Assembly (NCBI GenBank): GCA_963575745.1 | Contig: CAUYUJ010009857.1 | Span: 1 to 64,000 of the forward strand | Direction of reading: 5' to 3' | Source: Prorocentrum cordatum | Taxonomy: Eukaryota; Sar; Dinophyceae; Prorocentrales; Prorocentraceae | Length of the DNA stretch: 64,000 nucleotides | In this document: one piece after another, positions 11,763 to 63,164 of the stretch | How positions within the stretch are numbered: the first letter of the stretch is position 1 | Layout of the letters: every line of letters starts with the position of its first letter | The notes under the pieces: generated by a model | The model's input: only the letters and a program-made list of their open reading frames with translations | Database searches by the model: none | What the model was told of the DNA's origin: nothing | Program-made: the position numbers and the translations under genes

Positions 11763-12031
11763 CTCGTCGTCGCCGTTGCCGTCGCCAGAGGACGAGCGGG
11801 CGACGAGGTGAAGGATGGGGGGGAGGATCAGGAACATGATAGGATATGGATAATGATAAGGGTCGGGGCAAGGAGGGCGCGGGCGAGGACGAGGATATGG
11901 GGCGCCGCCGTCGCCCAGGGATGAGGACGAGGACCGAGCGATAGGACGAGTTTTTTTTCTTGGGATGTGTTGCTCGGTCGCAGCATCAAGTTGGTGACAA
12001 GGGACTCCTGCCTAGCGTGCGTTCGCGGGCC

Positions 12032-22818: not shown

Positions 22819-25451
22819 TCATCCTCCTGGGCGCCGCTTGGGTATGACGAAGTCACCTATATGTCTGCCGCACCGCATCCGCTCTGCAAGCTTGCAGCAC
22901 ACGCTGTTTATCGGGGTGCCCATTGCACAGGCACTGCCTACAGATGTCACGAAACGTTGATAATCTTCAGGCATATAACACCACGTGTGCTTCGGATTTA
23001 TCTGCCCCTGGCGCACCAGGTGCCACGCGAAGTGGTGCTTGTTGACAATAGAATATTTCATCTTATTCTGAGCAAACGCAGTGCTAGACAACGATTGGTA
23101 ACACTGGAGGAAATCATCTGTCCATTTGCGTATATTCACACACTCATCTGGACTGAAAAACATGCCACCTGTGTCGACGAGGTCGTACACTTTACATAAG
23201 CTTTTCATCATCAGCACCCTGGTCCGTGATGGGGGGCTCCTGTCGTCGTACTCCCTCACGAGCGTAAGGGCGACTCGACAGAGCCACCTCGCCTCCGCCG
23301 CCTTGATGGCGTGGCTTAACACTGGGAAGTTGGCGTGCGGTGAGTCTGGGTCCTTGACGAAATAGCTAAGCTTGAAATGGGACACACGGTGCTTGATTCC
23401 CTGCTCTGCATAAATCTCTTGAATACGTTTCCATAATCTCTCCACGCGAACATTCTTGGGCCCACGCTCGTGTTCAAATATTATCTCGTAAAATATGTTT
23501 GCGATTGCGTGACCCGAAACACCGAGGTCAAATGTGTGCATGAAGTCTAAACTCAACGTGTGCACACTCACGCCCCATATTTTAAATGCTGGGTGGCCAG
23601 CGTCGTAATCACGCTCATGGAACTTCCAATGGTGCGGCCCGTCCTGGGGTCAGAAGGGATCGGCGCGGGGGCGGGGCGGGCGGGCCTGGGCGCGGGGGGC
23701 GGGGGGTGGGTGGGTGGGGTAGGGGGGGGAGGGGGGGGGGGAGGGGCACCGCGTGCATGGTGAATAAATTTACCCTCCCCCAACCACTCCTCCTTGAACT
23801 TGTTGAAAGGATTTCCTGTTCTGTCGGCTGTGCACAGCCAACAGAAGTGCTCGTCCGCTGGATATGGCATTCCTAGGTGCGACGCGTAGAACTCAAGGTC
23901 CCCCTGGATAGCATAGATGAACCCCCTGTACGGCTCACTGGGACTGCACAGATACTGGCCCGCGAGCACCTGGCGATCTGGGTCCAATGGCTCGCCGTTC
24001 CAATCCGACACCCTCTTCCGCCCGAGGGCCCGCTCGCTCTGAACAAAATGTGCTGGGTTTGTGGTGGTGGGGGTGGGGTGGGGTGGGGGGCGGGGCGGGG
24101 CGAGGAAGGGGCGCGCGAGTGGGTCGGGGTAAGGCGGGGCCTGTGCGGGAGGATATGAGGGGTGGGGAGAGGTGAGGGGTGGGCAGAGGAATGATGGAAA
24201 GAACTGCCGACTGACGCCCATGGACCCAGGCTGCCGCTCCGCCCCCCCTTAGCCGTGCCAGACGCCGATCGGCGCGGGCCCTGGCGGCGAAGAAAAAAGG
24301 CAGCCGCGAGTGGAGAGAGACGAGAGCGAGCTGGACATGGACAAGAGAACGCGCCACGACCCACCTTTCCGTCGGGGTGATCTCCTATAGGGTGCACGCC
24401 TGGGCAGGCGCAGCCAACCATATTGACAGAAGGATGCTTGCCCCCCGCCAAGGCTTGAAAACTCCAATGCAATACCTGCCAAATCTCCAAGAACGTGTCT
24501 TTGCCCCCGTGCTTTTTCTCCTTCGTCAAGGTGCTTAGGGGCCAGGATATCAAGTTCATCGTGAGGCCCTTTGTGGAGCCAGCACCCAATAAACCTGTGG
24601 CACTTAACGACACTAATGAATCTCTGGTAAGGAACTCTGCACCATCTCCATGAATCCTCAACGGCACGCACGTGGACGCACGGTCCCTGATGCCCCATAC
24701 TGGGTGGCCACGTAACCGTCGGTCTTCCCTGTGGTATTTATTGTTACTGTGCAGATGTGTTTCCAGCTGTAGACTGCAACGCGGCACGCCCGCCCACCCC
24801 TCGCCCTCCACCGCCAGCGACTCGCACCCCCAACCTTTGTCCAAATCTCAGTTGAGGAGTACATTGGGGAAGGCAAAGGTCGCGGGGCGGGCTGGGGGGG
24901 AGGTGAGGGGAGGGGCGGGGGTGGAGGGGCGGGGATCGAGGGGCTTTACATTCCCGAAAAAAAAAAAAAAAACACATCCTGGAGGCGTTGTCCCAGAAAT
25001 CCCTCAGGCGCTCAATCCCGAAGATCTCCTGGAACTCCGCGGGATGCCGATGATATAGCGCAGAAAACCATTCATGGGGGAGCAGTGCCGCAGCGGACGC
25101 TTCAGTAGGCTGCGTGGTTTTGGGGTCGATGCAGGACACGGGGAACACCAGGGGTTCAGGCAGCCAATTCTTACCCAGGAAGGTCGCGAGCTGCCCGTGG
25201 ATGTTTCCTGGGTAGTTACCCCAGGAGCCCAGTGACGCTAGATGTGAAATCTCACGATGTCTTAAGCCGTCCCGATATGCAGCCATCGCGATGCGCTGGA
25301 CGTCCGTGGCGGCCACGAGGCCCCAGCACCATTGTTTGAGAAGGTGCGTCCCGAGGTTGGAATACTCAGAATCTGGAGGGCGAGGCGGCTCATCCCCGCC
25401 AGCGCTCCCGAGGGGTGCTTCCAACCGACGTTTATGCCCCCGCTTGACCAT
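22819..25451 (-). CDS. Four-exon gene, relative of the 12-14.7 kb gene (copy 2)
   Basis: Exon 1: ATG at 25451 (VKRGHKRRLEAPLGSAGGD), then LGTHLLKQWCWGLVAATDV, ending near 24980. Exon 2: about 24782-24365 (acceptor GTTGCAG, donor AAAG|GTGGGT), with CVPLRIHGDGAEF and FLEIWQVLHWSFQALAGGK. Exon 3: 24052-23750 (acceptor AAACCCAG), with GEPLDPDRQVLAG, IQGDLEFYASHLGMPYP and FCWLCTADRTGNPFNKF. Exon 4: 23643-22819 (acceptor GACCCCAG), with GPHHWKFHERDYDAGHPAFK, LDFMHTFDLGVSG, AEARWLCRVAL and KHHFAWHLVRQGQINP, stop at 22819. Shared with copy 1: GEPL, CxLCTA, HTxxLGV, EARWL and HHxxWHL in the same order. Introns are G/C-rich; the first begins near a run of A/T at 24958. Function unknown. The HTxDLGV motif recalls plant CACTA-type transposases, but I could not confirm this. 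Confidence 0.75.
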
Positions 25452-26226
25452 CGAGGAAAATCACGGGGCCGCGGGGGAGAGGGGGGCGTTCTCGGCACTT
25501 CGAGCCCGAACGCTTCTATGCATGACCGACGTGGCGGGGATCGGCGAAGGTGAATGGACGGGCCGAGGGGCGAGAAGAAGCAAGAGCGATCGCCATTGCG
25601 ATCTCACGGCGCACTGGTTGCGATGGCAGGCTCGCGCGAGCAGCAATGCAGACCGACTCGCGGGAGACCAGCGTTGCCCGACGGCGTGGCAGCGTTGGCT
25701 TGAACGAGAGCGCGGGTCTGACCAGGTCCGAGACTGGAAACCCACGAGCGTTGTCGGACTACGCCCTGGCGCATTCCTTCAACGGAAGGAATGCACCGAG
25801 GCGTAGTCCGAAACCATCGCACCAGTTTTACATAAGAAACGAGCCCCACGACTGCGTTCAAGCGACGCCTGGCGATGAGATGCCGCTGTCGGTCGGCACT
25901 ACTGTCGGCCCAGCAGCGCCTGCGCAGACTGGCGACGCCGTCGCCCGCAGCTACCGCCCACGGTAGCCCGTTAAAGCACGCGCACGCCGCGCGGGCAAGC
26001 CGAGCGCAGCCCAGAGCCAGCGTCAGGATTACAAATCTGGATGCAAGGCCCTCTTTCTCTCCAGGATTGGCGGGCGCGCAGAGGCAGACGAACCACCGAC
26101 GCCGATCTCGGTGCCCGAGGGATGCAACGGTACGCTGCATAAACTAAACATCATGGCCTTGGGGCACCTGCTTGGAGGGCAGATGCGCTCTGGGCTGCGG
26201 GGGCTGGGTGCTTGGCCTACCTACTG
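25452..26226. other. No confident gene; both strands open
   Basis: Several frames of 130-180 codons overlap on both strands (GC-driven). A strong hairpin sits at 25754-25811. I cannot choose a coding frame. Confidence 0.4.
25754..25811. repeat. Hairpin with 27-base arms
   Basis: TCGGACTACGCC..GCATTCCTTC, AAC loop, GGAAGGAATGC..GGCGTAGTCCGA, with a few mismatches near the middle of each arm. Confidence 0.8.
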
Positions 26227-31439: not shown

Positions 31440-31600
31440 ACCCTGACGTTTGCCTGACGTTTTATAAACGTCAGGCAATTTGCCTGACGTTTGCCTGACG
31501 TTTGGCAAACGTCAGGCAAATTGCCTGACGTTTGCCAAACGTCAGGCAAACGTCAGGCTATGTACCTGACGTTTGCAAAACGTCAGGCAAACGTCAGGAT
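31440..31600. repeat. Palindromic ACGTCAGGCAA array
   Basis: Alternating TTGCCTGACGTTT and AAACGTCAGGCAA, so the tract is a series of inverted repeats. A larger relative lies at 38575-39000. Confidence 0.95.
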
Positions 31601-38429: not shown

Positions 38430-38574
38430 GGGCACATACGTCCACCCACCCTTTCTCCTCCTCTTGTTCCTCCTCCGCTGTCCTGCCAGTGCCCCTTACA
38501 CGGCACCGTCATCCTGCCCCCTATCACCATGGGGTTTCTTTTCTCTTCCTCCCGTCGGGCTGGCGTCGACCTGG

Positions 38575-39000
38575 CGCCAGCCAGACGCCGACTTGACGTC
38601 AGCCAGACGTCGACCTGACGTCAGCCAGACGTCGACCTGACGTCAGCCAAACGTCAGTAAAACGTCAGTAAAACGTCAGTCAGACGTCAGGCAAACGTCA
38701 AGCAAACGTCAGGCAAACGTCATCCAAACGTCAGGCATACATCGTGTAACCGTCAGACATGACGTTTGGCTGATGTCTGCCTGACGTTTCGCTGACGTTT
38801 GGCTGACGTCTGACTGACGTTTTACTGACGTCTGACTGACGTCAGGTCGACGTCTGGCTGACGTCAGGCCGACGTCTGTTGACGTCAGGATTATGTATGG
38901 CTGACGTCTGACTGACGTCGGGCTGACGTCAGACTGACGTCTGACAAACGTCAGTTCGACGATTGAAAAACGTCAGTCTGACGTCAACCAGTCGTCTGTC
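38575..39000. repeat. ACGTCAG palindromic array
   Basis: About 40 TGACGT/ACGTCA cores spaced roughly 10 bases. Orientation flips near 38760: left half ACGTCAGCCAGACGTC, right half CTGACGTCTGACTGACG. The whole can form a large cruciform. Confidence 0.95.
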
Positions 39001-39025
39001 TGCAAATGGCGGGGCGGGCAAGGTT

Positions 39026-50622: not shown

Positions 50623-53600
50623 TCAGCACGCCGCCCATGCTTTGACCGCCTGCTCCCACCTGCGAGCTGCACCGCCCTCTCGGCGGAAGTAATCAGCAAG
50701 TCGCTCATGGGAGCCGGCAACATTCAAGCAGTTCTTCAGCACCATGGGCCCCCAAGACTGTCTCGGGCGGCCTCTTCTCCTTTTCCCAAGAAGGCTCTTG
50801 AGAACCAGACCGCCCGGCTCAAACACCGAGCTTCTGACTGGATCTTCGTCTGGTCTTCTCGCCAAATGGCCCATGTACAACATCTGTCTACGCGCAAGAC
50901 TATGGCTCAGAGGCGTCTGTTGGCTGATCTGCAGAACTGCACGGTTCGACACCCGACTGATGTACGACGGAGAGACTCTGCAAATACGTCTGAGACAATA
51001 ATTCTGGAACCCGTCGAGCCGTCTTCGCTCGGCCTGGTTAAGACACGCAGTGAATAATACATACGTGAGTTTGGAAACAACGCAAGCATTAAATATACGT
51101 AGTTTCTGTCTCCTACTCAAAGTCGAATGCGACCATATTCTTGCAAGCACCTTGAAGTCACTTCTGGCCGCCCCAATTCTCCGACTCAGTTCTGTGCCTA
51201 TGCGCCCGTCCGAAGCAAGAGACGTCCCGAGATAAGTTAATGATTGCTTGGCTGGGATGGGGACCTCGTTGCGTCCCAAAATATCAGCTTCGGTCCTTAC
51301 TTTCATAAGTTCCAACTTGCCCCAATTGAACTGCAGCCCGCACTGGCCCCCGCACTCCTCAATGCAGCGCATCAGCTCTTGAACGAGGGCTGGGTCGGAG
51401 TCTATGAGCAACGTGTCGTCCGCGTACACGAGCTCCCTCGCAAACTGGTTTTCAGGTATCGGTCCGGCACGACTCTGAAGCAGCGCGTGCGCGTCCGTGA
51501 GAAGCGTCGTCATCACAATGGTGAACAGAAAAGGGGACAGCGGACAGCCTTGGCATATGCCGTACCTCTGCTGATGGATGCTGGACGTGGCCCCGAAGTC
51601 CCTCACGACGAAGTTGCGCTCGCTGTAAATCGACACGACGACGTCCACGAAAACTTCTGGGCAACCAAATCTCCGCAAAGACCCGGCGAGCGCGTCCGGC
51701 GAGACCGAGTCGAATGCCTTGGCCCAGTCGAGTGCCAGGAACAAGCGACTTGCATCTCGTGTTGACCATGTGTCGTCCAGCACCCGGCGGGCTAGGAACA
51801 CTGCGTCTGCCGTGCCCCGCCCGGAGCGGAACCCGAATTGGGTTCGCCAGATGCGGTCTTCGGCCCCCGCCTGCTTCAGCCTCTGGAGCAGGATGGTTGC
51901 GAACAATTTGTAGCCGATGGGCGAGATACTGATGGGGCGGTAGTTCTCGCATTCTGCAGGGTCGCCCTTCTTGAACAGCATCGACACCCTCGCATGCCTC
52001 CAAGCTTCTGGGATCTTACCTTGTCTCCAAACGTCGGTGTAGAATTTTGCCAGATAGCTCGGGAGACCTCCCGCGTCGCTCGCCGCTGCTTTCCAGAATT
52101 CGGGTGGCACCCCGTCAAGGCCAGAAGCGCGTCCTCGCTTCAATTTCGCAGCTGCGGCCTTCACCTCCCCCACTGTGATATCACCCATGGAGATGGGCAG
52201 GTCGTTGTCGGCAATCCGTGCAGCAACTGGCGGTGCCACTGACGTGGGTCTGACTGCCCACTGCACCCTCTCGAGGTAGTCGGCCAGAGTCTCAGCACGC
52301 TGGTCCGTCTCCACAATGCCCTTGTTGACGTCACGAAGCCTGCCCTGTCTGCGGACAGGGCCTTTCCGGAGCCTCCTAATCTGATTCCAATCAGCGGATT
52401 CCGTGACCGATTCGATCCAAGCGGCCTTGTCCCTGGCAACCGAAGCGCGGATTTTCTTCGATAGGCGCTTCTCCTCGTCAGTGTCGCCCTGCCTTCTGGC
52501 GCTCCCGCGGCGCTCGATCAGCCCCAGCGTTCCGGCGCTCGTCCACGGCCTTGTGGTCCGCCTCGGAAGGAATGGCAACGTGCGTTCGGCAGCGTGATGA
52601 AAACCGTCCACGATACGACTCCAACCAAGATCGACATCCTCGCCTCCAGCTGCTGTGTCCTCGAAGCCCTCCAAAGCATTCAACATGTTCACGTTGAAAA
52701 AACAAGCGGCGAGTGGGTCGGAGAGGGCTGTGACATCAAGGCGTGGACTCTGACTCGCAGGCGCCGTCTTCTCAACTGACATACGGACACACGCAGTCAA
52801 CAAGAAATGATGGGTCGACAACGGCACGTCGTGCCTAGCAGCCACGCCAGTGATGTCCCGGAGAAAAGTCCTCTCGCAGAGTACGAAATCGATCTGCGAG
52901 TGCGTCGAGGATCCAATTTGTAGCCCGGCAGGCGTACCCACGTTGTAGTTAGTGACAAGGTTGTGATCCGGCACGTCAAAAAATGTGTTTGCAACGCACA
53001 TGTTCAGATTCTCGCACATCTCAACCATGAGGTGCCGGTTGGCGTCTTCCTTGCACGTCTGGTGGGGGTGTTTGAAAATATAGGGCCCCACCGCGTCACT
53101 CTCTCCATCGAGTTGGCCATACAACTTTGCATTCATGTCTCCTAACACAAGCTTGGGTCCATGAGCGGATCTTGTGGAAACGAATTCTGACAAACTCGTG
53201 AAGAAGTCAAACCGCCGCCGGAACTCGTAACCGCTGTGCGGCGCGTATGCAGAGAAAATAACAGCTTTACCTCCTGGGATCCGAAGCTTGAGCGATGCCA
53301 TGCGGTCCGTCGCCTGGCAAAATCCAACCACAGAGTGCCTGAAACTTGGATGTACGATGAAGCCCACTCCAGCCCGCTCGTCCTCTGGGTCTCCCGCGCC
53401 GCCGGAAAGGACAACGAGGTAGCCGGAATCCGTGACGTACGTGGTAGACTTTGATGTCCATGTCTCTTGTAGGCACAAGATCTTGATATGTAATTTATCC
53501 ATTATGGATTCTAGCTCAATTTGTTTCGAGTCTGTATGCCCTTCGATGTTCCAAGATGCAATGTTGAATTCGTCAGCCGTGGCAGGGCGTAAACGACCAC

Positions 53601-53676
53601 CCCGAGCCGCAGAAAGTGACAACTTGGCTTGGCCAGCTGGATGTCCACATACTGCAGGTGAAACGTCATTGCTCAC
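50623..53676 (-). CDS. LINE ORF2: AP-type endonuclease plus reverse transcriptase
   Basis: 1017 codons as drawn. Endonuclease: NIASWNIEGH near residues 38-46, CLQETW near 68-73, SAYAPHSG and LGDMNAKLYG, as in APE-type LINE endonucleases. Reverse transcriptase: RHARVSMLFKKGDPAECENY and RPISISPIGYK, QFGFRSGRGTADAV, FLALDWAKAFDSV, GICQGCPLSPFLF, ELVYADDTLLIDSD (the YADD core), FNWGKLELMKV and YLGTSLASDG. The C-terminus has KRRRGRPRQSW, common in LINE ends; no RNase H seen. All key motifs are present. The drawn start is GTG; the first in-frame ATG is codon 59, after the first endonuclease motif. The frame continues upstream to the ORF1 stop UAG with no other stop. Confidence 0.95.
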   Translation of the reverse strand: MSNDVSPAVCGHPAGQAKLSLSAARGGRLRPATADEFNIASWNIEGHTDSKQIELESIMDKLHIKILCLQETWTSKSTTYVTDSGYLVVLSGGAGDPEDERAGVGFIVHPSFRHSVVGFCQATDRMASLKLRIPGGKAVIFSAYAPHSGYEFRRRFDFFTSLSEFVSTRSAHGPKLVLGDMNAKLYGQLDGESDAVGPYIFKHPHQTCKEDANRHLMVEMCENLNMCVANTFFDVPDHNLVTNYNVGTPAGLQIGSSTHSQIDFVLCERTFLRDITGVAARHDVPLSTHHFLLTACVRMSVEKTAPASQSPRLDVTALSDPLAACFFNVNMLNALEGFEDTAAGGEDVDLGWSRIVDGFHHAAERTLPFLPRRTTRPWTSAGTLGLIERRGSARRQGDTDEEKRLSKKIRASVARDKAAWIESVTESADWNQIRRLRKGPVRRQGRLRDVNKGIVETDQRAETLADYLERVQWAVRPTSVAPPVAARIADNDLPISMGDITVGEVKAAAAKLKRGRASGLDGVPPEFWKAAASDAGGLPSYLAKFYTDVWRQGKIPEAWRHARVSMLFKKGDPAECENYRPISISPIGYKLFATILLQRLKQAGAEDRIWRTQFGFRSGRGTADAVFLARRVLDDTWSTRDASRLFLALDWAKAFDSVSPDALAGSLRRFGCPEVFVDVVVSIYSERNFVVRDFGATSSIHQQRYGICQGCPLSPFLFTIVMTTLLTDAHALLQSRAGPIPENQFARELVYADDTLLIDSDPALVQELMRCIEECGGQCGLQFNWGKLELMKVRTEADILGRNEVPIPAKQSLTYLGTSLASDGRIGTELSRRIGAARSDFKVLARIWSHSTLSRRQKLRIFNACVVSKLTYVLFTACLNQAERRRLDGFQNYCLRRICRVSPSYISRVSNRAVLQISQQTPLSHSLARRQMLYMGHLARRPDEDPVRSSVFEPGGLVLKSLLGKRRRGRPRQSWGPMVLKNCLNVAGSHERLADYFRREGGAARRWEQAVKAWAAC

Positions 53677-53691
53677 GCACAGTTGGCGCCC

Positions 53692-54735
53692 CTACTTGCT
53701 GCCCTTGGCGGCAGCCTTCCCTTTCCCCTTCCCTTTCCCGAGGCCTTTGGACGGGATCTTGCCGAGCTTGGCGTTGAGGTTCGCGACCAAGTCCTGGAAG
53801 TTGGTGTAGCCGTCCTGCTTGAACCATTCCTCCCAGCCCGTGCCAAAGTCGGTCTCAAACTTGTTGCCCACGATCCTCCCGCTCACCGCCACATCGGCAC
53901 CAACCCACACCGTGCCCTCCGGGTCCGCCCAGACGCTCTCGGCCGTGAAGCCCCACTGCTTGAGAAGGTGTTTGACGCTAAACGCGAAAGACGTGAGGAT
54001 ACGCTTGGGGAGAACCATGTCCCTCTTTGCCCAAATATCGTTCCCGCCCTCCTTGAGAGAGGCCTGGCGGAGGAGTTTCACGGCAGTGTCCCTGTCAGCA
54101 CGGCTCCTGAATCGAACGAAGATGAGACCACGAAATTCCCCTTTAGAGTACACCTCTGCCGGCTGCGGCCCGTAGAGGTCCCACATGTTCGCCTCTATCC
54201 ACTTCTTCGCGTTCTCCGTGCTGCCGATCGTCTGAAGGCCACCGACCACCGCAGTGTACTCCTCGTATTGGTTCCCATTGCTCTTCTGCGTGTTGTCCAT
54301 CAGCTTGAGCTCCGAGATCTGGGCCTCCAGCATCTTCAACTGTTCTCGCACTTCTGCATCTGTCCGGGAACCCGCCGAACTGGTTTCCAAGTGCGTCAGG
54401 CGCGCGTCCATGTTCTCCATCTTGTTCTCTACCTCCGTCATCCTCTCCTCCATGGTCCCTCCGATCTCTGTCACTTTGCGCTCTAAGCCCTCCACCGCCT
54501 TCCGAAGTGGCTGCACCTCCTGCTTCAAAAGGTTCGCGATCTGCTGGAGCGTTGGCGGCTGCGCCGCTGCCTCCTCCGGAGTGCCCGGTGCCATTGGCGA
54601 AGATATCTGATGTACCTCTGGGCGCGGCGGGGACAAGTCGAGGTCGTCATCCATCTCGTGGAGGGGGCTAAACAAGCGGCGACGAACGTCTCGGGTGAGA
54701 GTTTCGGCAACTGGTGTTCCTGGCCCACGCGTCAT
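53692..54735 (-). CDS. LINE ORF1: coiled coil plus RRM-like nucleic-acid binding protein
   Basis: ATG at 54735 (MTRGPGTPVAETLTRDVRRR) is the first start after the leader relics and a 96-base 5' UTR. 347 codons. Predicted coiled coil about residues 60-135 (LLKQEVQPLRKAVEGLERKV, MEERMTEVENKMENMDARL, EQLKMLEAQISELKLMD). Then a region like the RRM of LINE-1 ORF1p (KGEFRGLIFVRFRSRADRDT and AVKLLRQASLKEGG). Tail LGKGKGKGKAAAKGSK, a basic GKG end typical of dinoflagellates. A longer frame upstream only reads through the leader relics and the satellite. Ends in UAG (53694-53692), in the same frame as ORF2. Role by family knowledge: coats LINE RNA and helps target-primed reverse transcription. Confidence 0.85.
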   Translation of the reverse strand: MTRGPGTPVAETLTRDVRRRLFSPLHEMDDDLDLSPPRPEVHQISSPMAPGTPEEAAAQPPTLQQIANLLKQEVQPLRKAVEGLERKVTEIGGTMEERMTEVENKMENMDARLTHLETSSAGSRTDAEVREQLKMLEAQISELKLMDNTQKSNGNQYEEYTAVVGGLQTIGSTENAKKWIEANMWDLYGPQPAEVYSKGEFRGLIFVRFRSRADRDTAVKLLRQASLKEGGNDIWAKRDMVLPKRILTSFAFSVKHLLKQWGFTAESVWADPEGTVWVGADVAVSGRIVGNKFETDFGTGWEEWFKQDGYTNFQDLVANLNAKLGKIPSKGLGKGKGKGKAAAKGSK

Positions 54736-54831
54736 CGGAAGGTACGGGTATGGGAATGGAAAATGGGAAATGTTGGAATAGGAAGAATTGGAGAGTAATT
54801 GGAATGGAAAATGGGAAATGTTGGACTTGCC

Positions 54832-54861
54832 CTTGAGCCAAAATGGCTTGAGCCAAAATGG
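54832..54861 (-). other. Two abutting spliced-leader relics at the LINE 5' end
   Basis: The minus strand reads CCATTTTGGCTCAAG at 54861-54847 and again at 54846-54832, followed by GGCAAGTCC. Each is the exact 3' 15 bases of the dinoflagellate leader. The leader contains its own AG (CCGTAG|CCATT), so re-splicing of a retroposed copy yields this stacked pattern. Confidence 0.93.
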
Positions 54862-55015
54862 GTGCGATGGGCGAATGCGAGCGCTGGCATCTGGGCCTTC
54901 GGTGGAGCTCTTGATGGGGCCACGAAGCGCGTGAGGGTTGTGCCAAGATGGTTGCATTGGGCGCAGGCGGGCGCTGGCTTTTGGGCCTTCGGTGGAGCTC
55001 CCTATTGGGCCACGA
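54862..55015. repeat. About 90-bp array, right of the LINE
   Basis: Two units (GGTGGAGCTCTTGATGGGGC near 54902 and GGTGGAGCTCCCTATTGGGC near 54992), same strand as 49966-50545. Confidence 0.9.
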
Positions 55016-55019
55016 AGAA

Positions 55020-55740
55020 TATGGACATGCGAAGGGCAGACGCAGGGATGGGAGGAGGGAGGAAGCGGGAGGAAGGAGGCGGGAGGAGAACGCGGGGCGT
55101 CGTCTCTTCAAAACGAGGGCCCAAGACGGAGGAGGAGGGGGAGGAGCAGGAGGAGGAGGAGAAGGAAGAGGAGGAGGAGGAGGAGGAGGAGGAGGAGGAG
55201 GAGGGAGCGGGAGGAGTGAGGAGGCAGCGGGAGGAGTGAGGGCGGGGGGCGCTGCTTCATCAAAACGAAGACCCAGCGCCACAGGATGCTTGGGGCAGAT
55301 CGAGGATGGAGAGGGGGGGGCGGCCCACAGGCAAGTGCACGCCGCCGCGGGGCCGGTGCAGGTCCACAGGTGTTGGGACGGGTGCTGGTGCGCATGGCCT
55401 CTCAGCCTGGGGCCAGGAGCCGGCATGGCATCGCACAACGCCTGGGCCCATGGTGCTCTCCTGTGAGGCCCGGGGGGGGGGGGGGGCAGGAGGGGCGAGG
55501 CGCGCGGCAGAGAGGGCACATGGAAGCGGGGGTGGGAGGAGGGACGGGGGGCCGGCGAGGAAGAGGATGAGGGTGAGGAGGATGAGGATGAGGAGGAGCG
55601 GGGGGATCAGAAAGACGAGGATGCGGATGAGGATGAAGGGATTGGCGAACAAAAGCACGAAGATGAGCAAGAGCGTGGGGGGGGTGACAATGAGGGTGGG
55701 GGATGAGAAAGAGGGGTAGGGTTTGAGGTGCGGGTTCGAG
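55020..55740. other. GGA repeat and C/G-rich sequence, exon choice unclear
   Basis: GGA repeat at 55130-55205 and GAGGATGAGG at 55560-55640. The phrase CTTC.TCAAAACGA..CCCA is duplicated (about 55105 and 55255). 55290-55460 is open in several frames on both strands; I call no gene. Confidence 0.4.
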
Positions 55741-55746
55741 AGCAGA

Positions 55747-55882
55747 ATTGGCAGAGAGTGTGCCTAGGAGGATGCTGCCAAGATGGGCGGAAGCGTGCTT
55801 GCAGATGTCTGACGTCGCGCAGCCTTGCCCATGCAAAGCCCACCACCATGAAGGTCCGGTGCGCGGGTTCGTGCAGACCTAG
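55747..55882 (+). CDS. Likely terminal exon (AEACLQMSDVAQPCPCKAHH)
   Basis: The frame reads AESVPRRMLPRWAEACLQMS, DVAQPCPCKAHHHEGPVRGF, VQT and stops at 55882. Acceptor GAGAGCAG or ATTGGCAG. The CPCKAHHH segment could bind metal (inference). The minus strand (TFMVVGFAWARLRDVRHLQA) is also open. Confidence 0.42.
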
Positions 55883-55911
55883 AAAAAGACCCGCCATCCT
55901 CGTGTCTATTT

Positions 55912-56092
55912 GAGCGGGCGAAGAAGGGTATAAAATAAACATTTCGCTGTCGGGGGCGCCTGTCCCTGGGCGGCTGGAAAGTTTATACCTCTACGGTGCC
56001 ACCGTAAGGGAATAATTTTTCCATCCGCCCAGGGACAGGCGCCCCCGACAGCGAAAAGTTTATTTTATACCGCTCTTCGCCCGTTAACTATT
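55912..56092. mobile_element. Foldback element with about 75-base arms
   Basis: Left arm GGGCGAAGAAGGGTATAAAATAAAC..TTCGCTGTCGGGGGCGCC, then TGTCCCTGGGCGG..TGGAAA. The right arm is its reverse complement, ending TTTATTTTATACCGCTCTTCGCCC. A short centre (TATACCTCTACGGTGCCACC) separates them. No protein inside, so it looks like a MITE-like non-autonomous element. Confidence 0.85.
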
Positions 56093-56099
56093 GGGGGCC

Positions 56100-57294
56100 C
56101 TGTGCGGCCTCCTGTGCGCACGCGTGCGCGTGCGCAGGTGAGTCTTCTGCCGCCGTCGAGCCTGGCGCAGCGCTGCGTCCTCCGCCGCCCTATCGCCACA
56201 CGCCGCCTCCGCCCCCGAAGCCTCGCGTGCCACCCTGCAGCCCAGGACGGCGCCGCGCGCTCATCGGAGGCCGCCGGCGACGCCTCCGCGCGGGGGCCCG
56301 AGGACGTGGAGTGCCCCGGGCCGCACCGGGGCCCGGTGACGCTGTGGTACAGCCAGCCCGAGGCGGCCCAGGTGTTGGACGCCCGAAATGGGCACGGACA
56401 GAACGGGTACAGTGCCCAACAGCAGTTCCCGTTCATCCTGAACAGGGCTCGCGGTCGGTGTCGCCGTGGCCTGTGTCCATTCGAGACAGGAGGCCGCCTG
56501 CCCAACAGCGGCAGCTGGTGGTTTGGGGCAACATTTGTTGTTGGGCATTGTACCCATTCTTTCCGTACCCATTTGAAATGGGTACGGAAAGAATGGGTAC
56601 AATGCCCAACATTCGGGACGCCCGAAATTCGGGCGTCCAAACAGGTGGGCTGTTTGGACGCCCGAATTGGACGCCCGAAATTCGGGCGTCCAAACAGGTG
56701 GGCTCGCGGGGCACTGCCGACTCCCTCGAGGGCCAGGAGCCCGGCGCTCTCGCTCCCGTGGGGGGGGGGGGGGGCTTCCGTGCCGCTCTGACGCTCTGCC
56801 GCGGTCTCGTAAGTCGGGCCTGTCCCTCTGCAGGAGGAAGATCCAAAACTGGTCAAACAACAATAGTCTGGGGACGATTTGTGTAAATATTCTGTTCACC
56901 ATTCTGGAACATGTTCTTTGACTGTTCTTAACTCTTCGTCCAAATTCCCCCCCTGTAGGAGGACAGGCCCGACTTAACCGTTGTCAGGCGATCGCAAACA
57001 TGGATCAATGGGGCGTGGATTAGCGACGGGTCCCGTTTCCATGGGCAATCGCGGATTCCCGCCGCCGAACGAGGCAGCGCCGGCCGCTTTTGGGGGAGGG
57101 CACCTCCCCCGATGCATGGATTTGGCGACCGCGCGCCACATCCATGAATCGCTGATCCACGTTTGCGCGCCCCCGACGTTGGGCGCCTGTCAGCGTGTGT
57201 TACTCCTTCGCAGTTGTTCGGAGACCGGGTGCTTTTGCAGGACGGCAACGTCACGCTGATCGGTTCCCAGCGGTGGCGTAATGATCATGTGTAG
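56100..57294 (+). CDS. Multi-exon gene carrying palindromes and a TIR element in its introns
   Basis: Exon a ends at 56138 with donor CGCAG|GTGAGT. Exon b: about 56242-56368 (acceptor CACCCTGCAG; DGAARSSEAAGDASARGPED, CPGPHRGPVTLWYSQPEAAQ), donor CCCAG|GTGTTGG. Exon c: about 56737-56808 (acceptor GGGCCAG; EPGALAPVGGGGGFRAALTL, CRGLVS), donor CTC|GTAAGT supplied by the TIR element. The last exon is 57214-57294 (acceptor CTCCTTCGCAG; LFGDRVLLQDGNVTLIGSQR, WRNDHV, stop). Between c and the last exon the element also offers CCCTGTAG followed by a frame DRPDLTVVRRSQTWINGAWI, which would add an exon but ends in a stop. Function unknown; the last exon has a beta-strand look. Confidence 0.55.
56370..56712. 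repeat. Nested perfect palindromes inside an intron
   Basis: 56540-56610 is a perfect 71-base palindrome: arms GTTGGGCATTGTACCCATTC..CCCATTT around a single G. 56617-56712 has GGACGCCCGAA-A-TTCGGGCGTCC twice plus CAAACAGGTGGGC twice. A diverged single arm (AAATGGGCACGG..GTGCCCAACA) lies at 56386-56421. Confidence 0.93.
56810..56976 (+). mobile_element. Short TIR element, family 1 copy A (167 bp)
   Basis: Ends TAAGTCGGGCCTGTCC and GGACAGGCCCGACTTA. Internal ATAGTCTGGGGA. TA at both outer ends. Its first bases make GTAAGT with the preceding G, and CCCCCTGTAG lies near its right end. Confidence 0.85.
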
Positions 57295-57557
57295 TGCTGT
57301 TGCTCCCCCATTCTCAACGGGGGCGCCTCCGAAACGGCGGGCGGAAAAGAGAGGTGCCTGTGAGGGAATCCTGAAAACCTCGCGCGGCGCGCAAAGTTGC
57401 ATGACGCTCGCGCGGCGATGCTCCGAGACGTGAGTTCCATGTACGTAGACACGACGTGGGACCGACGTAAATCCGACGTAAACCGATGTAAACCTGGCGT
57501 ACGGTCGGGACTTCTTGCATCGAGTTACGTCGGGCCTGTCCTTCTACAGGGGGAATA
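57204..57557 (-). CDS. Possible minus-strand exon bordered by element B
   Basis: After CCCCTGTAG inside element B (minus), the frame reads KDRPDVTRCKKSRPYARFTS and later FGGAPVENGGATALHMIITP, open for 118 codons to a stop near 57204. It overlaps the plus-strand terminal exon (57214-57294), so at most one may be real there; a repeat CGACGTAAA (57455-57500) also helps keep it open. Confidence 0.3.
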
Positions 57558-57679
57558 TTAAAAAACAAAATCAAAAAATAGTCTGGGGATGACTTGTGGA
57601 TCATTTTTTGACCACTTTGGGAGGTATTTTCATGTTTCGCCCAACATCCACCTTTGTAGGGGTGGACGCGCCCGACCTA
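57526..57679 (+). mobile_element. Short TIR element, family 1 copy B (154 bp)
   Basis: Ends TACGTCGGGCCTGTCC and GGACGCGCCCGACCTA. Internal ATAGTCTGGGGA and CACCTTTGTAG. TA at both ends. Confidence 0.85.
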
Positions 57680-58186
57680 GGCAGAGCGTTCCTCTTCGCC
57701 GGTTCTGGCCCACCGCGCCCCGGCGCGACGCGACTCACCAAATTGCCCCCTTGCGAGGGCGACGCGCACGTTCGAGAGGACAGCTGGCCTTTTCGGCGGC
57801 CGACGCACGGGCGGCGCGCGGGCGACGAATGCGCGATGCACCTCTTGTCGCGAAGGGGGGTGGGGGTCAGCACGCCGGTCGTCTTACTGGGCTTGAACAC
57901 ACGCCCCAGTCCTCGAGAGCCGCCACGTCCCCGGCCCTTCCCGAGCCGCCTCCCGCCCCGCGGAGCGCGGGGCGACGCGCCAGCCGCAGCGCGGGGCAGA
58001 GCGCGCGTCGCCGGGGCCGCCGCCGCGGCGCGCCAGGCAGAAGTGCTCGGCCGCAGGGCCGACGTCAAACTTCTGCGCGAGTCCGAGGGGGATCCGAAAT
58101 GCCGTCCGACGCGAGCCCAGCGCAAGTCCTGCGTGGGTGCGACGGTCGGTGGTCCTCGGGACGTGTGCTGGCCCAATGTTTGTTGA
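57660..58186. CDS. Coding likely but strand uncertain
   Basis: Plus, after TTTGTAG: GVDAPDLGRAFLFAGSGPPR then CMHL-type sequence, open to 58186. Minus: AGRGGTGSTNIGPAHVPRTT and FRIPLGLAQKFDVGPAAEHF, CLARRGGG, open 58210-57884. The minus frame looks better in 58050-58200. GC is very high, so frame length is weak evidence. Confidence 0.3.
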
Positions 58187-58405
58187 CCCCGTGCCGCCTC
58201 TGCCGGCCACCGTTGCGCCACCTGCGGAGCTCTAATATTTTTCCCCCCATTTTTGATCTTAGTCCCGCTCGCCATCATGATCTCAGATCGCTCGGGTGGA
58301 TACTAGTATCAAAAAGCACTCGGCGGGATCGGGTGTTGAGTGTCATCTTGGCAGGTGCTGTCGGTCTTCTTGACTTAACTCGAGCTGTCGTGCTGAAGGG
58401 CCTCG

Positions 58406-58680
58406 GTGGATCAGCACATGTCGGCGCCAGCACACGTTCCCAGGACCACCGGGACGCCAACGGGGTCCCAGGTGGCCGCGCGAGGCCTCGATGGCGGGGC
58501 AGTCGTCGCTGCGCGTCTCGGCGCCGACGGGCGTGGCAGAGAGAGGGCGCGCGGCGAGCCGGTACGGGATGCCCGCGTGCCAACATCCGTGGAGCGCGCG
58601 GCGCAGGTCACCCTGCTCCCGCGCGCGGCAGCGCGCGCAAGGGGAGAGATCACGAGGGGGGAGGAGGGAGGGGGGATGAG
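58406..58680 (+). CDS. Possible exon (MSAPAHVPRTTGTPTGSQVA)
   Basis: The plus frame has MSAPAHVPRTTGTPTGSQVA, ARLGADGRGRERARGEPVRD, VERAAQVTLLPRAAARARGE. The PAHVPRTT core matches the minus frame at about 58165-58145, so this is an inverted, diverged duplicate. Ends in GGA repeat. Confidence 0.35.
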
Positions 58681-58800
58681 GGAGGAGGGAGGAGGGGGGA
58701 GGAGGGAGGAGGGAGGAGAGAGGTCAGGAGGGGGGAGGAGGGAGGCGGAGGGGGACGGGGAGGAGGAGGAGGCGGAGGAGGCGGAGGAGGAGGATGGATC
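58660..58800. repeat. GGGAGGA tract
   Basis: GGGAGGAGGGAGG purine repeat. Confidence 0.9.
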
Positions 58801-58839
58801 AGGAGGGTGGCAGGGTGAGGATGATGCTGCTGCTGCGGC

Positions 58840-58850
58840 TGATGGTGATT

Positions 58851-58899
<49 letters not shown>

Positions 58900-59715
58900 C
58901 GACGATGATGATGAGGATGAGGATGAGGATGAGGATGAGGATGATTATGAGGATGATTCATTATGCTGATGATGATGATGATGACGATGATGAGTAGTGG
59001 GAGGAGGAGGAGGAGGAGGAGGGCGATAATGGTGGTGATGGTGATGGTGGTGGTGGTGGCGACGATGATGATGATGATGCTGGTGATGATGATGATGATG
59101 ATGGTCTTGGTGGTTATGACGGTGATGCTGATGATGATGAAGGTTATGGTGATGAATCGTGATGATGATGAGGTGTTCATGGTGATGATGATGGTGATTC
59201 TCATTATGTCGCTGATGATGATGGCGAGGATGATGCTGATGGTGATTTTGATGGCGATGCTGGCGGTGATGATGATGGTAATGATGCTGGTGCTGATGCT
59301 GATGATGGTGGTGGTGAGGACGAAGTCGACGATGATGAATATAGTTGATGATGGCTATGTTGTTGATGATGGTAAGTATGATGACGATGCGCATGATGAT
59401 GCTGCTGATAATTTATGATAATGTTGATCAATGTGATGAGTATGCTGATGATGGTGAGAATGGTGATTTAAATAATGATATTGATGGTGGTGGTGATGAT
59501 GAAAATGATGATGCTGATGATGATGATGATGATGATGATGGTGATGGTGATGATGATTATGATGATGCTGATGATGATTATGATGATGATGATGTTGGTG
59601 ATGGTGATGGTGATGGTGATGGTGGTGGTGGTGATGGTGATGATGATGGTCTTGGTGGTGATGATGATGAAAGTGATACTTATGCAGATGTTGATGCCGA
59701 TGCTGATGCTGGGAA
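58840..59715. repeat. GAT trinucleotide array, about 0.9 kb
   Basis: GATGATGATG with GGTGGTGATGGTG variants, interrupted by a GGAGG island at 58995-59025. Resembles 43395-44215 but without the GTGTCCC punctuation. A 200-base phrase (TGGTCTTGGTGGT.ATGA, near 59103 and 59650) is repeated. Confidence 0.95.
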
Positions 59716-59946
59716 TACGCCCCGCATATATCATCCAGTGTCGAAGGTTTACAGGCCCAAACCCCCCAGATGGGATGGACCCGAGGGTGCACAGGTCCCC
59801 CCCCCTTTTAGGATGGGGGCAGAGGACGACGACGACGACGACGTCACGCCCACACTGCCACGACCACAACGGGGTGGGGGGGGCCCGAAAGCATCAGCAT
59901 GAGAGTGGGGGGCCTGGAGCCTTGGACCATAGGCGTCCCCACTTAC
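59716..59946. other. Spacer after the GAT array
   Basis: Mixed sequence with a GAC repeat (59825-59842) and poly-C/G runs. No exon called. Confidence 0.4.
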
Positions 59947-60930
59947 GTTAGTAAGTCGGCCAGTGGGACTCAAAGGCCACGCCAGTGGGGATGTGGATCG
60001 GCCAAAGTATGCCCAGACAACGGCTACGTCGTCAAGTGAGCGCAGCCACTCGTCCAGGGGATGGAGGATGAGGAGGAGGAGGAGGAGGAGGAGCAGGAGG
60101 GCAGGGGCAGGAGGGTGATGGATACGTTGTGGTGGCGAGGAGGCCCCGGCCACGGCATCTTATTTCCTAAGATTGGAAAGCCGTTCTCCAGCACGCGCGC
60201 GCGATGAGCATGGCGACCAGCCAGCGACGGCCAGCGTGGTCTTTGCTATCCTCCTCCCTCCCTCCATTTCTCTGTCATCGGCTCCCTTTGTCCTACTCCT
60301 CTGCTGCCCTCTGCTCCATCATCTGTGGCGACATCCCCTTGCAATTCTGCTGCGCTGTAGCTCTTGATTATAGCCGACGACGCCTCTCGCCAATTGGCGG
60401 GTCTGCCTGTGGCGGCTGTTTGTGGCGTGATGACGGCACTCTCGAGCCCGTTCGGCGTGCAGGGCAGCGGTGGTTTGCGACCGTAGCACCGGACAAAGGG
60501 CAAATATTGGTACATTAAATCAACTTGCCGCAAACTCGGATTCAAAGGTGAAGCAAAGTTAGACTCTCACCGCTCCCTCTGCACTTCCCGGTGCGCGCGT
60601 GCGCCCTGCAGCATGTCCGGCGCCATCTGGGGGTCGAGAGTGGGACCGGTTGTCCAACCCGCCCGCGCCCATTTTTCATCATTGGCGGTGGCGCACTGCT
60701 TGCCCGGAACTTTCTGGTCCGCAGCCGGGGCGGTCGCACAGCGCGTTCGGATAGTTGCGCCGGACCTGTGGGCACTCGATGGGTCGGGGGTGGACAAACC
60801 TCCTACCCTGACACGTCGATTAAGGAATTGGCCGTTTTTGGTTCGCGAGGGGGCGTCGCGGCCGTCATTTTTGCGGGTCCGGGTCCGTCGATTTCGGTCC
60901 CAGGCCGTTTTCACTAAGGGGAGGTCTACT
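59947..60930 (-). CDS. Three-exon minus gene segment, unknown product
   Basis: Exon a: from within about 60930 to 60575 (best part VPGKQCATANDEKWARAGWT, TGPTLDPQMAPDMLQGARAH), donor GCG|GTGAGA. Exon b: about 60525-60300 (LRQVDLMYQYLPFVRCYGRK, GLESAVITPQTAATGRPANW, SSAIIKSYSAAELQGDVATD). Exon c: about 60065-59947 (LDEWLRSLDDVAVVWAYFGR, STSPLAWPLSPTGRLTN), donor AAC|GTAAGT. The stretch between a and b is short (36-50 nt) and might be read through. A GGA/TCC intron separates b and c. No family recognised. Confidence 0.52.
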
Positions 60931-60977
60931 AAAGGGAGGTTTGTCCACCGCCGAATGGGGATCAGGGGGAGAGGGGG

Positions 60978-61160
60978 CGACTAGACGTAAGAGTGGCCTT
61001 TCGCCGGAGTGACCTTTGGTGCGGGCCCACGGGGTTCCCCTCCGATCGCCAAACGCGATGCGGCAGTAGCGTCTTGCGCATTTGTGTGTTGTCCCCCCCC
61101 CCCCCAAAGCCGCGCACCAGAGGTCACTCCTACCCAGGGTCGCTCCTGCGTGTAGTCGAA
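60978..61160 (+). mobile_element. Short TIR element, family 2 copy E
   Basis: Left end CGACTAGACGTAAGAGTGGC, then GGAGTGACCTTTGGTGCGGG. Right end CGCACCAGAGGTCACTCC, then GGTCGCTCCTGCGTGTAGTCG. Each arm holds two GAGTGACC-like halves. A long C run (61088-61103) lies inside. Confidence 0.75.
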
Positions 61161-61367
61161 GGGGGGCGGCCGCGGAGGAGGAGAACTCGCAGGAGGCACG
61201 CGGGAGCCTTCGCCACGAGGAGTGCGCAGGCGGCCCCAGGCGCCGGAGAGAGGTCTACCGAAAGGGGGGGGGGGGGGCATGTCGCCCAGGACACCTCTGC
61301 GTCGTCAGGTGGGGGCCCAAAGGATATGCACCACCGCCACGTCGATTCCTCCTCTTTCCTCTACCCT
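61161..61367 (+). CDS. Exon-like segment between elements E and C
   Basis: Bounded by a TIR element on each side. Plus frames stay open: one reads EEENSQEARGSLRHEECAGG, another ICTTATSIPPLSSTL near its end. The minus reads DRPDVRVEERGGIDVAVVHI. I cannot fix strand or frame. Has a 13-G run at 61265. Confidence 0.3.
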
Positions 61368-61525
61368 TACGTCGGGCCTGTCCCTCTACAGGAGGGATAG
61401 TCAAAAATAATCCAAAAATTAGTCTGGGGACTTTGATTTGACTATTTTTGAGCATTGGGGGAGTATTGTTTGAGTATCTTTAATTGCCCGCCCAAAATCC
61501 CCCTGTAGGGGACAGGCCCGACTTA
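61368..61525 (+). mobile_element. Short TIR element, family 1 copy C (158 bp)
   Basis: Ends TACGTCGGGCCTGTCC and GGACAGGCCCGACTTA. Internal TTAGTCTGGGGA and CCCCTGTAG. TA at both ends. It sits at the centre of a wider, diverged inverted repeat (GGGGGCCCAAA..ATAT.CACCACC on both sides). Confidence 0.87.
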
Positions 61526-61672
61526 ACTCTGCCCTCCTCTTCCTTTCCCCTCCTCCTGGGAGAGGGCGGGGGCGAGGGAGGTGGTGGTGGTGTATATGTT
61601 TGGGCCCCCCATCAGGAGGGCACAGCCAGCCCGCCGGGGAAGGGAGGTGGAGGCGGCAGGCGTGGTGTCGGC
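61526..61672 (-). CDS. Exon-like segment between elements C and F
   Basis: The minus frame reads ASTSLPRRAGCALLMGGPNI then YTTTTSLAPALSQEEGKGRG. It resembles the plus-strand ICTTATSIPPLSSTL of 61161-61367, as expected of an inverted duplicate. Plus frames are open too. Confidence 0.3.
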
Positions 61673-61856
61673 TATGCGCAAGAGTGACCTTTGGGTAAGA
61701 GTGACCCTTGGTGCGCGGCTTTTGGGGGGCCGCGGGGGGGGGGCCCAACCTGGGCGCGCAAGCAGCTGCCGCTGCTGCGTGCTCGGCCACCTGGGGACCC
61801 GTCTGTGCCCGCACCAAAGGTCACCCCTGCGACAGGTCACTCTTATGCCTAGCCGA
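61669..61856 (+). mobile_element. Short TIR element, family 2 copy F
   Basis: Left end TCGGCTATGCGCAAGAGTGA, then GGGTAAGAGTGACCCTTGG. Right end CACCAAAGGTCACCCC, then AGGTCACTCTTATGCCTAGC. Same arm design as copy E. GTAAGA in the left arm could serve as a donor. Confidence 0.78.
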
Positions 61857-62013
61857 GTGGTGGTGGAGAGGAGGCCTTGGTCGCGCCGCGCCTGGCCGGG
61901 GAGCGGTGGCAGGGGGGGCGCACGGCGCGGCGTGCCGAGCAGGCGGCGTTGGCCCGCAGGGTCTCTGCGCTCCTCCTCCCCTCCCCTCCTGTTGTCCACC
62001 GCGCCCCTCGTCT
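61857..62013 (-). CDS. Exon-like segment between elements F and D
   Basis: The minus frame after the element D acceptor-like CCCCTGTAG reads RWTTGGEGRRSAETLRANAA then RRAVRPPCHRSPARRGATKA. The plus strand is also open. Bounded on both sides by TIR elements. Confidence 0.32.
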
Positions 62014-62172
62014 TAAGCCGGGCCTGCCCTTTCTACAGGGGAGATGTTCGGGAATAGTCACAGAATAGTCTGGGGGCGGTTGTTCTGCTGTTCTTGACCA
62101 TCGTAGGGCATTGTTGCAGTAATCTCAAGTTTGTGGTCCAAGGTCCGCCTGTAGGGGGACACGCCCGACCTA
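62014..62172 (+). mobile_element. Short TIR element, family 1 copy D (159 bp)
   Basis: Ends TAAGCCGGGCCTGCCC and GGACACGCCCGACCTA. Internal ATAGTCTGGGGG and CGCCTGTAG. TA at both ends. The GC in place of GT (AAGCC) would require a GC donor. Confidence 0.83.
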
Positions 62173-62301
62173 ACCCTCGTTCTCCTCCATCCCCCCTGTC
62201 GTCTTATTCGAGGGGTTCGGGGCCTGGAGGGGCAGGCCGTTGACTCCGGCGTCGCGGCCCAATGTAACTAGCGATCGCCCTGAAGTCAGCGGTTCGAGGC
62301 T

Positions 62302-62562
62302 CTATACCTCCATCGCCCTTGCAGCACGTCTTTGATCCAGCACGCATCTTGCCCTGCCACTCGGCCAGAACCCGCTCGGATTGTCAAGAAGGCGTCTGCG
62401 AATTGTAAGCTGCAGTGTGTTCTGAGCCACATTGAGGCCGGTCGCCAGAGCATACAGCAGCCAGGACAGCAAGAGCGGGGGCTTGCATGTAGCAACAAAG
62501 ACATCAATATGTAATGCCAGCCGCTTCAAAGTGAGCAGAACAGATGGTAAAGAGGGGCCCAA
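62302..62562 (-). CDS. Possible membrane-type frame
   Basis: The minus frame reads LALHIDVFVATCKPPLLLSW, LLYALATGLNVAQNTLQLTI, RRRLLDNPSGFWPSGRARCV and stops at 62302. One hydrophobic segment (LLLSWLLYALATGLNVA) could span a membrane. No ATG; start and neighbours unknown. Confidence 0.32.
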   Translation of the reverse strand: MGPSLPSVLLTLKRLALHIDVFVATCKPPLLLSWLLYALATGLNVAQNTLQLTIRRRLLDNPSGFWPSGRARCVLDQRRAARAMEV

Positions 62563-62599
62563 GGTGGTTCAAGATTGCTTAAAGTCTTGAAGCGGCCCA

Positions 62600-62800
62600 A
62601 GGCACGCTTTAGATGGTGTCCCAGCATTACCTATATATGCACCACAAAGGTTTCACACCAGATATTGCAGCATACACGTTGTATCACATGTGTTGCGCAC
62701 CATACATATGTGTATGCATATATACATATATAGATATACACGTATACGTGTATGTGCAGGTATGCCCATACAGGATTGCGTGTACGTAGTATCCGACGAG
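62600..62800. other. AT-rich island
   Basis: ATATGTGTATGCATATATAC and TATATAGATATACACGTATACG. Similar in style to islands at 660-760, 20050-20180 and 27820-27930. Confidence 0.7.
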
Positions 62801-62810
62801 TCGGGGCCCC

Positions 62811-63023
62811 GTGCTCTCGCCAACATCCGCTGAAGCTGTCGCAGCATGCGGGCCCAAGGGCCTCGCGCCCTTCCCTTACATCCTCACAGTCGAGACATCG
62901 AGACAAAGCAAGGTACTTCTCGAGTTACGGCGGGGCTCGCTGTCCATTTCTAGGTCCTTTCGCAGTTGTTTTTGCGAGTCTTCTCCGTGCACCCGGGCTG
63001 CTATCAACAGGGCCGGGAATTGA
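62811..63023 (+). CDS. Possible exon (AACGPKGLAPFPYILTVETS)
   Basis: The plus frame reads LSPTSAEAVAACGPKGLAPF then PYILTVETSRQSK, followed by a possible donor AGCAAG|GTACTT at about 62908. The minus frame RCLDCEDVREGREALGPACC is a rival. Confidence 0.35.
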   Translation: MLSPTSAEAVAACGPKGLAPFPYILTVETSRQSKVLLELRRGSLSISRSFRSCFCESSPCTRAAINRAGN

Positions 63024-63087
63024 GCTCCGTTTCCCTCTCTCGCGTTCCTGATGAGAGTAGCTTGACTGCACTCCTGTGCCCGACGTT

Positions 63088-63164
63088 GGGGGGCCACATG
63101 CGAACCCTACCCCTGCCCCCCACGATTCCTGAGGGGGTAGGCGTAGGGTTCGCATGTGGCCCCC
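63088..63164. repeat. Hairpin with about 30-base arms
   Basis: GGGGGCCACATGCGAACCCT..CCCC and GGGG..TAGGGTTCGCATGTGGCC, nearly perfect, with a 15-base loop. Confidence 0.88.

Follow-up and report, generated by a model that had tools for sequence, protein, structure and literature searches.

Introners have already been published for dinoflagellates (PMC10666404, PMC11453091, PMC7789003). The genome of Prorocentrum cordatum is reported to have a GC content of 59.7% and introns enriched in introner elements, with GC (51.4%), GT (24.7%) and GA (23.8%) as donors and mostly AGG as acceptors (PMC10666404). The introner elements of P. cordatum and Amoebophrya were defined in annotated introns and carry inverted repeats of 8-20 nt as well as direct repeats of 3-5 nt near the intron borders (PMC10666404, PMC7789003). 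In Aureococcus, Symbiodinium and other algae, introners with terminal inverted repeats (TIRs) and target duplications have been described, the latter being 8 bp long in an Aureococcus family and 4 bp long in families of Symbiodinium microadriaticum (PMC9860276). Here, we analyzed four short elements, A to D, in a window of 64,000 nt (mean GC about 61%), which is the whole stretch taken from P. cordatum contig CAUYUJ010009857.1. An initial annotation had interpreted them as a family of introners. Like the algal introners, A-D have TIRs and target duplications, and they share the inverted repeats at both ends and the dinoflagellate setting with the elements of P. cordatum and Amoebophrya. However, the algal introners are established gene introns that are spliced at or close to the ends of the element (PMC9860276), whereas A-D are at most candidate introns and the acceptor proposed for them sits 18-21 bases inside the element. 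Moreover, in contrast to the elements of P. cordatum and Amoebophrya, their direct repeats are 8 bp long and the window is unannotated. We consider it very probable that A-D are instead a family of miniature inverted-repeat transposable elements (MITEs), i.e. non-autonomous DNA transposons with TIRs, which carry 8-bp target-site duplications (TSDs) and reside in non-coding DNA, either intergenic or intronic.

Results

The four elements are present as initially annotated (154-167 bp by the limits given there), including their starts and ends, the TA at all eight outer ends and the internal sequence AGTCTGGGG, which was found in every copy. Compared to those limits the inverted repeat is longer on both sides, adding one base per end. 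The elements thus delimited lie at 56809..56977 (A, 169 bp), 57525..57680 (B, 156 bp), 61367..61526 (C, 160 bp) and 62013..62173 (D, 161 bp), all on the plus strand and all inside 5.4 kb. Their TIRs of about 28 bp start with TTAMGYCGGGCCTG and enclose an AT-rich core (GC 61-67% in the TIRs, 35-49% in the core). The ends follow the consensus TTAMGYCGGG...CCCGACYTAR, with the exception of the first base of A, which is G and not T, and the last base of B, the right TIR of which is degraded. At 156-169 bp the elements have a core far too short to encode a transposase, and the longest frame crossing an element is not transposase-like. A blastn comparison within the window linked C to A (E-value 6e-16), to B (4e-12, 65 bp) and to D (2e-9) as well as A to B (1e-6, 77 bp), and pairwise identity across the alignment was 62-73%. 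Judged from these comparisons, A-D are homologous beyond chance. The inverted-repeat scores of A (18), C (19) and D (11.5) exceeded the 99.9% point of 20,000 random segments of the window (11.0). The random maximum reached 22, as inverted and simple repeats abound in the window.

Each element is flanked by 8-bp direct repeats which lie just outside the extended TIR and differ in sequence from copy to copy. For C the repeats are CTCTACCC (61359..61366) and CTCTGCCC (61527..61534) and for D CCCTCGTC (62005..62012) and CCCTCGTT (62174..62181), with seven of eight bases matching in both cases (local P 0.007 and 0.005, respectively). The repeats of A, GCGGTCTC (56801..56808) and CCGTTGTC (56978..56985), and of B, GCATCGAG (57517..57524) and GCAGAGCG (57681..57688), match at five of eight bases each, with local P values of 0.046 and 0.027 when taken alone. 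In total 24 of 32 bases match. Among 18 x 18 registers compared for length 8, this one scored highest, and it is symmetric about the TIR. None of 20,000 draws of random positions reached 24 matches (maximum 21), and after correction for 144 registers, with each draw maximized, only 2 of 3,000 did. Likewise, 24 matches were not reached in any of 1,000,000 draws from the local flanks (mean 8.9), and the 23 other pairings of left and right repeats yielded 20 matches at most. Since each copy has its own 8-bp repeats, A-D represent four independent insertions, and duplication of a single locus as their source was rejected.

Conservation is unevenly distributed along the elements. When the copies are compared with each other, the two TIRs show 86% and 85% identity, whereas the values are 96% for a 12-bp motif and 55% for the remaining core. 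This motif, AWTAGTCTGGGG, is located on the plus strand at a distance of about 54 bp from the left terminus (56862..56873 in A, 57577..57588 in B, 61418..61429 in C and 62064..62075 in D) and is nearly invariant amid variable surroundings. The TIRs contain a sub-palindrome, CCTGT-N5/6-ACAGG, which is imperfect at several ends and within which CTGTAG/CTACAG is located. RNA folding, performed for C and A only, predicted long hairpins of -73.9 and -67.5 kcal/mol (z-scores -7.4 and -6.1), which is explained by the TIRs, as these must fold in this way. Because the cores have diverged more than the ends, much of their divergence probably arose before insertion, and selection on mobility may have preserved the ends. 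Mismatches in the TSDs (8 of 32 bases) and between the TIRs (about 15%) suggest that the insertions are old, and the copies are probably no longer mobile.

The splice-like signals on which the introner proposal had been built were recovered. Near the right end CTGTAG occurs in A, C and D and TTTGTAG in B; the corresponding position of the left arm reads CTACAG in B, C and D and CTGCAG in A, and the frames at the right ends read EDRPDL, VDAPDL, GDRPDL and GDTPDL. GTAAGT is indeed found at the left end of A, which owes it to a first base G that no other copy has. The left ends of B, C and D, and also the right end of A when read in reverse, have T at this position. The terminal G is therefore private to A, and GTAAGT was rejected as a feature of the family. 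The frame preceding it, which had been regarded as exon-like, is an open reading frame (ORF; 55934-56791) that spans the inverted repeats at 55915-56083 and 56539-56611 and has no Pfam match. The former is a hairpin with 84-bp arms (88.8% self-complementary), the latter one with 36-bp arms (98.6% self-complementary).

Coding sequence beside the elements was sought in several ways. A Pfam search at an E-value of 0.01, which is a weak test for exons, gave no match for any of the 67 stop-free ORFs of at least 70 aa overlapping 55300-63100, from which low-complexity ORFs had been removed beforehand. A codon score, for which six long window ORFs (probably transposon genes) served as training set, separates frames only weakly; its best-of-six values were in most cases below zero beside C and D and ranged from -0.07 to 0.14 beside A and B, the in-frame medians of the training ORFs being 0.08-0.25. 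The minus-strand translation through A retrieved seven candidates in a protein search, none of them at an E-value up to 10. Scanning the window against Rfam and for tRNAs gave no matches.

The window contains several other repeats and ORFs. A second family with inverted repeats comprises two copies in opposite orientation (60978-61158 and 61668-61856; 71% identity) with TIRs of the form TCGRCTA...AAGAGTGACC and possible short flanking repeats, AGGGG and GTGGTG, in simple sequence. Another inverted-repeat element (60784-60954; TCGGGGGTGGACAAACCTCC) has an exact 5-bp flanking repeat, ATGGG, and direct and inverted repeats with the units TGACGT/CTGACGTTTG form nested clusters at 31442-31598 and 38548-39002. 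A long interspersed nuclear element (LINE) occupies 50623-55107 on the minus strand. Its part at 50623-53691 carries reverse transcriptase and endonuclease domains, ORF2 looks intact (1022 aa, RVT_1, Exo_endo_phos), and an ORF ending in GKGKG lies upstream. Among the best 7999 candidates by shared words, the closest relatives of the LINE were unnamed proteins, mostly from ENA, with no more than 61% identity, and one P. cordatum protein covered 22% of it at 46% identity; a LINE-based search for related viral contigs found none. Several ORFs of the window are rich in GKGKG, as is common in dinoflagellates. ORF pieces at 11945-14408 (plus strand) and 22819-25460 (minus strand) resemble, by eye, two copies of one transposase-like gene, and four such transposase-like pieces had no Pfam match. 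For a part of the ORF at 6821-8743, a protein search returned 4920 candidates and none at an E-value up to 0.001.

Discussion

A-D combine the features by which MITEs are recognized. They have TIRs, which are strong in A, C and D and degraded in the yet homologous B, as well as TSDs of fixed length that differ between the copies, and they are short and lack transposase coding. The context is supportive, as further elements with inverted repeats are packed into this stretch. A transposase from a putative autonomous relative would bind the TIRs, for which the sub-palindrome is a candidate binding site, and each copy would be pasted at cuts staggered by 8 bp, so that gap filling would generate the 8-bp duplications. 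Target duplications of this length are known from the hAT, P element and Merlin superfamilies, and A-D resemble MITEs of these superfamilies in being short and non-coding and in having inverted ends together with an 8-bp duplication. The terminus TTAMGYCGGG is not known to match that of any superfamily. Since no transposase was seen, the superfamily of A-D cannot be named. A description of the family was not found in the accessible literature on dinoflagellate MITEs and TIRs or on hAT elements and TSDs, supplements and most subscription papers lying beyond this search.

Several observations weigh against this interpretation. Neither an autonomous partner nor an empty site was seen in the 64-kb window. 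The inverted-repeat score of B is 5.0 and thereby unexceptional on its own against the 99.9% point of 11.0; B was kept in the family because it is homologous to C. The TSDs of A and B, with five of eight matching bases, are weak when taken singly. Furthermore, only four copies were seen, and a search of the window with a model built from A-D added no other copy that passed the inclusion threshold; its remaining matches above threshold were the same four elements on the opposite strand, as expected from their symmetry. Real copies were not found in the viral or genome contigs scanned either. Exact TIR scans of viral contigs gave no match in three scans and one 16-mer match in another, while those of genome contigs gave none, and in another scan three matches compared to about 3.6 expected by chance. 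These matches (the viral 16-mer and the three genome loci) reached E-values of 0.32 or worse with the family model. Finally, the invariant motif AWTAGTCTGGGG is not accounted for by a MITE, nor is it by an introner.

The TA at all eight ends could point to a MITE of the Tc1/mariner or Stowaway type, in which TA would be the target that is duplicated. We regard this as very improbable, since most ends continue the inverted repeat beyond the TA and the copy-specific 8-bp direct repeats follow outside of it. Therefore, the TA belongs to the TIR, and its role as target duplication was rejected. That A-D are short TIR elements forming a mobile family is well supported, now also by the 8-bp TSDs. 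In the introner proposal of the initial annotation, an inner donor, GYCGGG (4 bases in), and an inner acceptor, YTGYAG (located 18-21 bases before the opposite end), would excise the element in either orientation. Both signals do occur at all ends of A-D and on both strands, albeit with sequence variants, and introner-bearing introns have been reported for P. cordatum (PMC10666404). However, it is the symmetry of the element that places donor-like and acceptor-like sequences on both strands, the CTGTAG/CTACAG pair representing the two arms of a single TIR viewed from two sides. With the 8-bp duplication counted, splicing at these sites would add 31, 33, 30 and 31 nt to the message on the plus strand and 31, 31, 31 and 32 nt on the minus strand (A to D in each case). 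The reading frame would be kept in two of eight cases, with about 2.7 expected by chance. The idea that the inner CTGTAG evolved as a splice site was therefore rejected, and the result speaks against splicing in either orientation at these positions. Moreover, Pfam and the codon score, both weak tests, provided no support for exons, and GTAAGT is restricted to A. The inner splice sites are thus unlikely, and to this version of the introner proposal we attach hardly any credence. The introner status of A-D in general is unproven.

In a different type of introner, the target duplication would supply the splice sites. Insertion into a target G-N6-G would create G/TTAA...TTAA/G, that is a GT...AG intron in either orientation, and as 7 + 7 bases of the duplication are retained the message would gain a net 6 nt and stay in frame. 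The bases touching the element are identical, and G or C, in all four copies (chance about 0.0015, the pattern having been noticed post hoc), and GT...AG is intact today on the minus strand of C and D, i.e. in two of the four copies. Introners recruiting splice sites from their target duplication are in print, including a case in which an 8-bp duplication adds 12 nt (PMC9860276). Nevertheless, where AG is required A has CG (minus strand) and B has GG (plus strand), and B needs the strand opposite to that of the other three copies. Splicing of C would shorten the longest minus-strand frame over the join from 158 to 83 codons, which is a weak test as open frames of similar length exist on both strands of the region. 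Again, no coding evidence was found beside the elements with Pfam and the codon score, weak as these tests are. We therefore consider this model improbable, and there is only a slim chance that A-D are an either-orientation introner family in which C and D are minus-strand introns and A and B have decayed or lie outside genes. If this were true, the conversion of a transposon into an in-frame intron would follow a rule that is simple and can be tested, with exactly two codons added whichever way the element is inserted.

In all likelihood, A-D are genuine MITEs of a fairly ordinary family that duplicates 8 bp of its target, and any splicing of these elements would be incidental. They would add another MITE family to a region dense in inverted-repeat elements and be of use mainly for repeat annotation. 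At the same time, they would serve as a clear example of how the symmetry of TIRs alone mimics splice signals on both strands.

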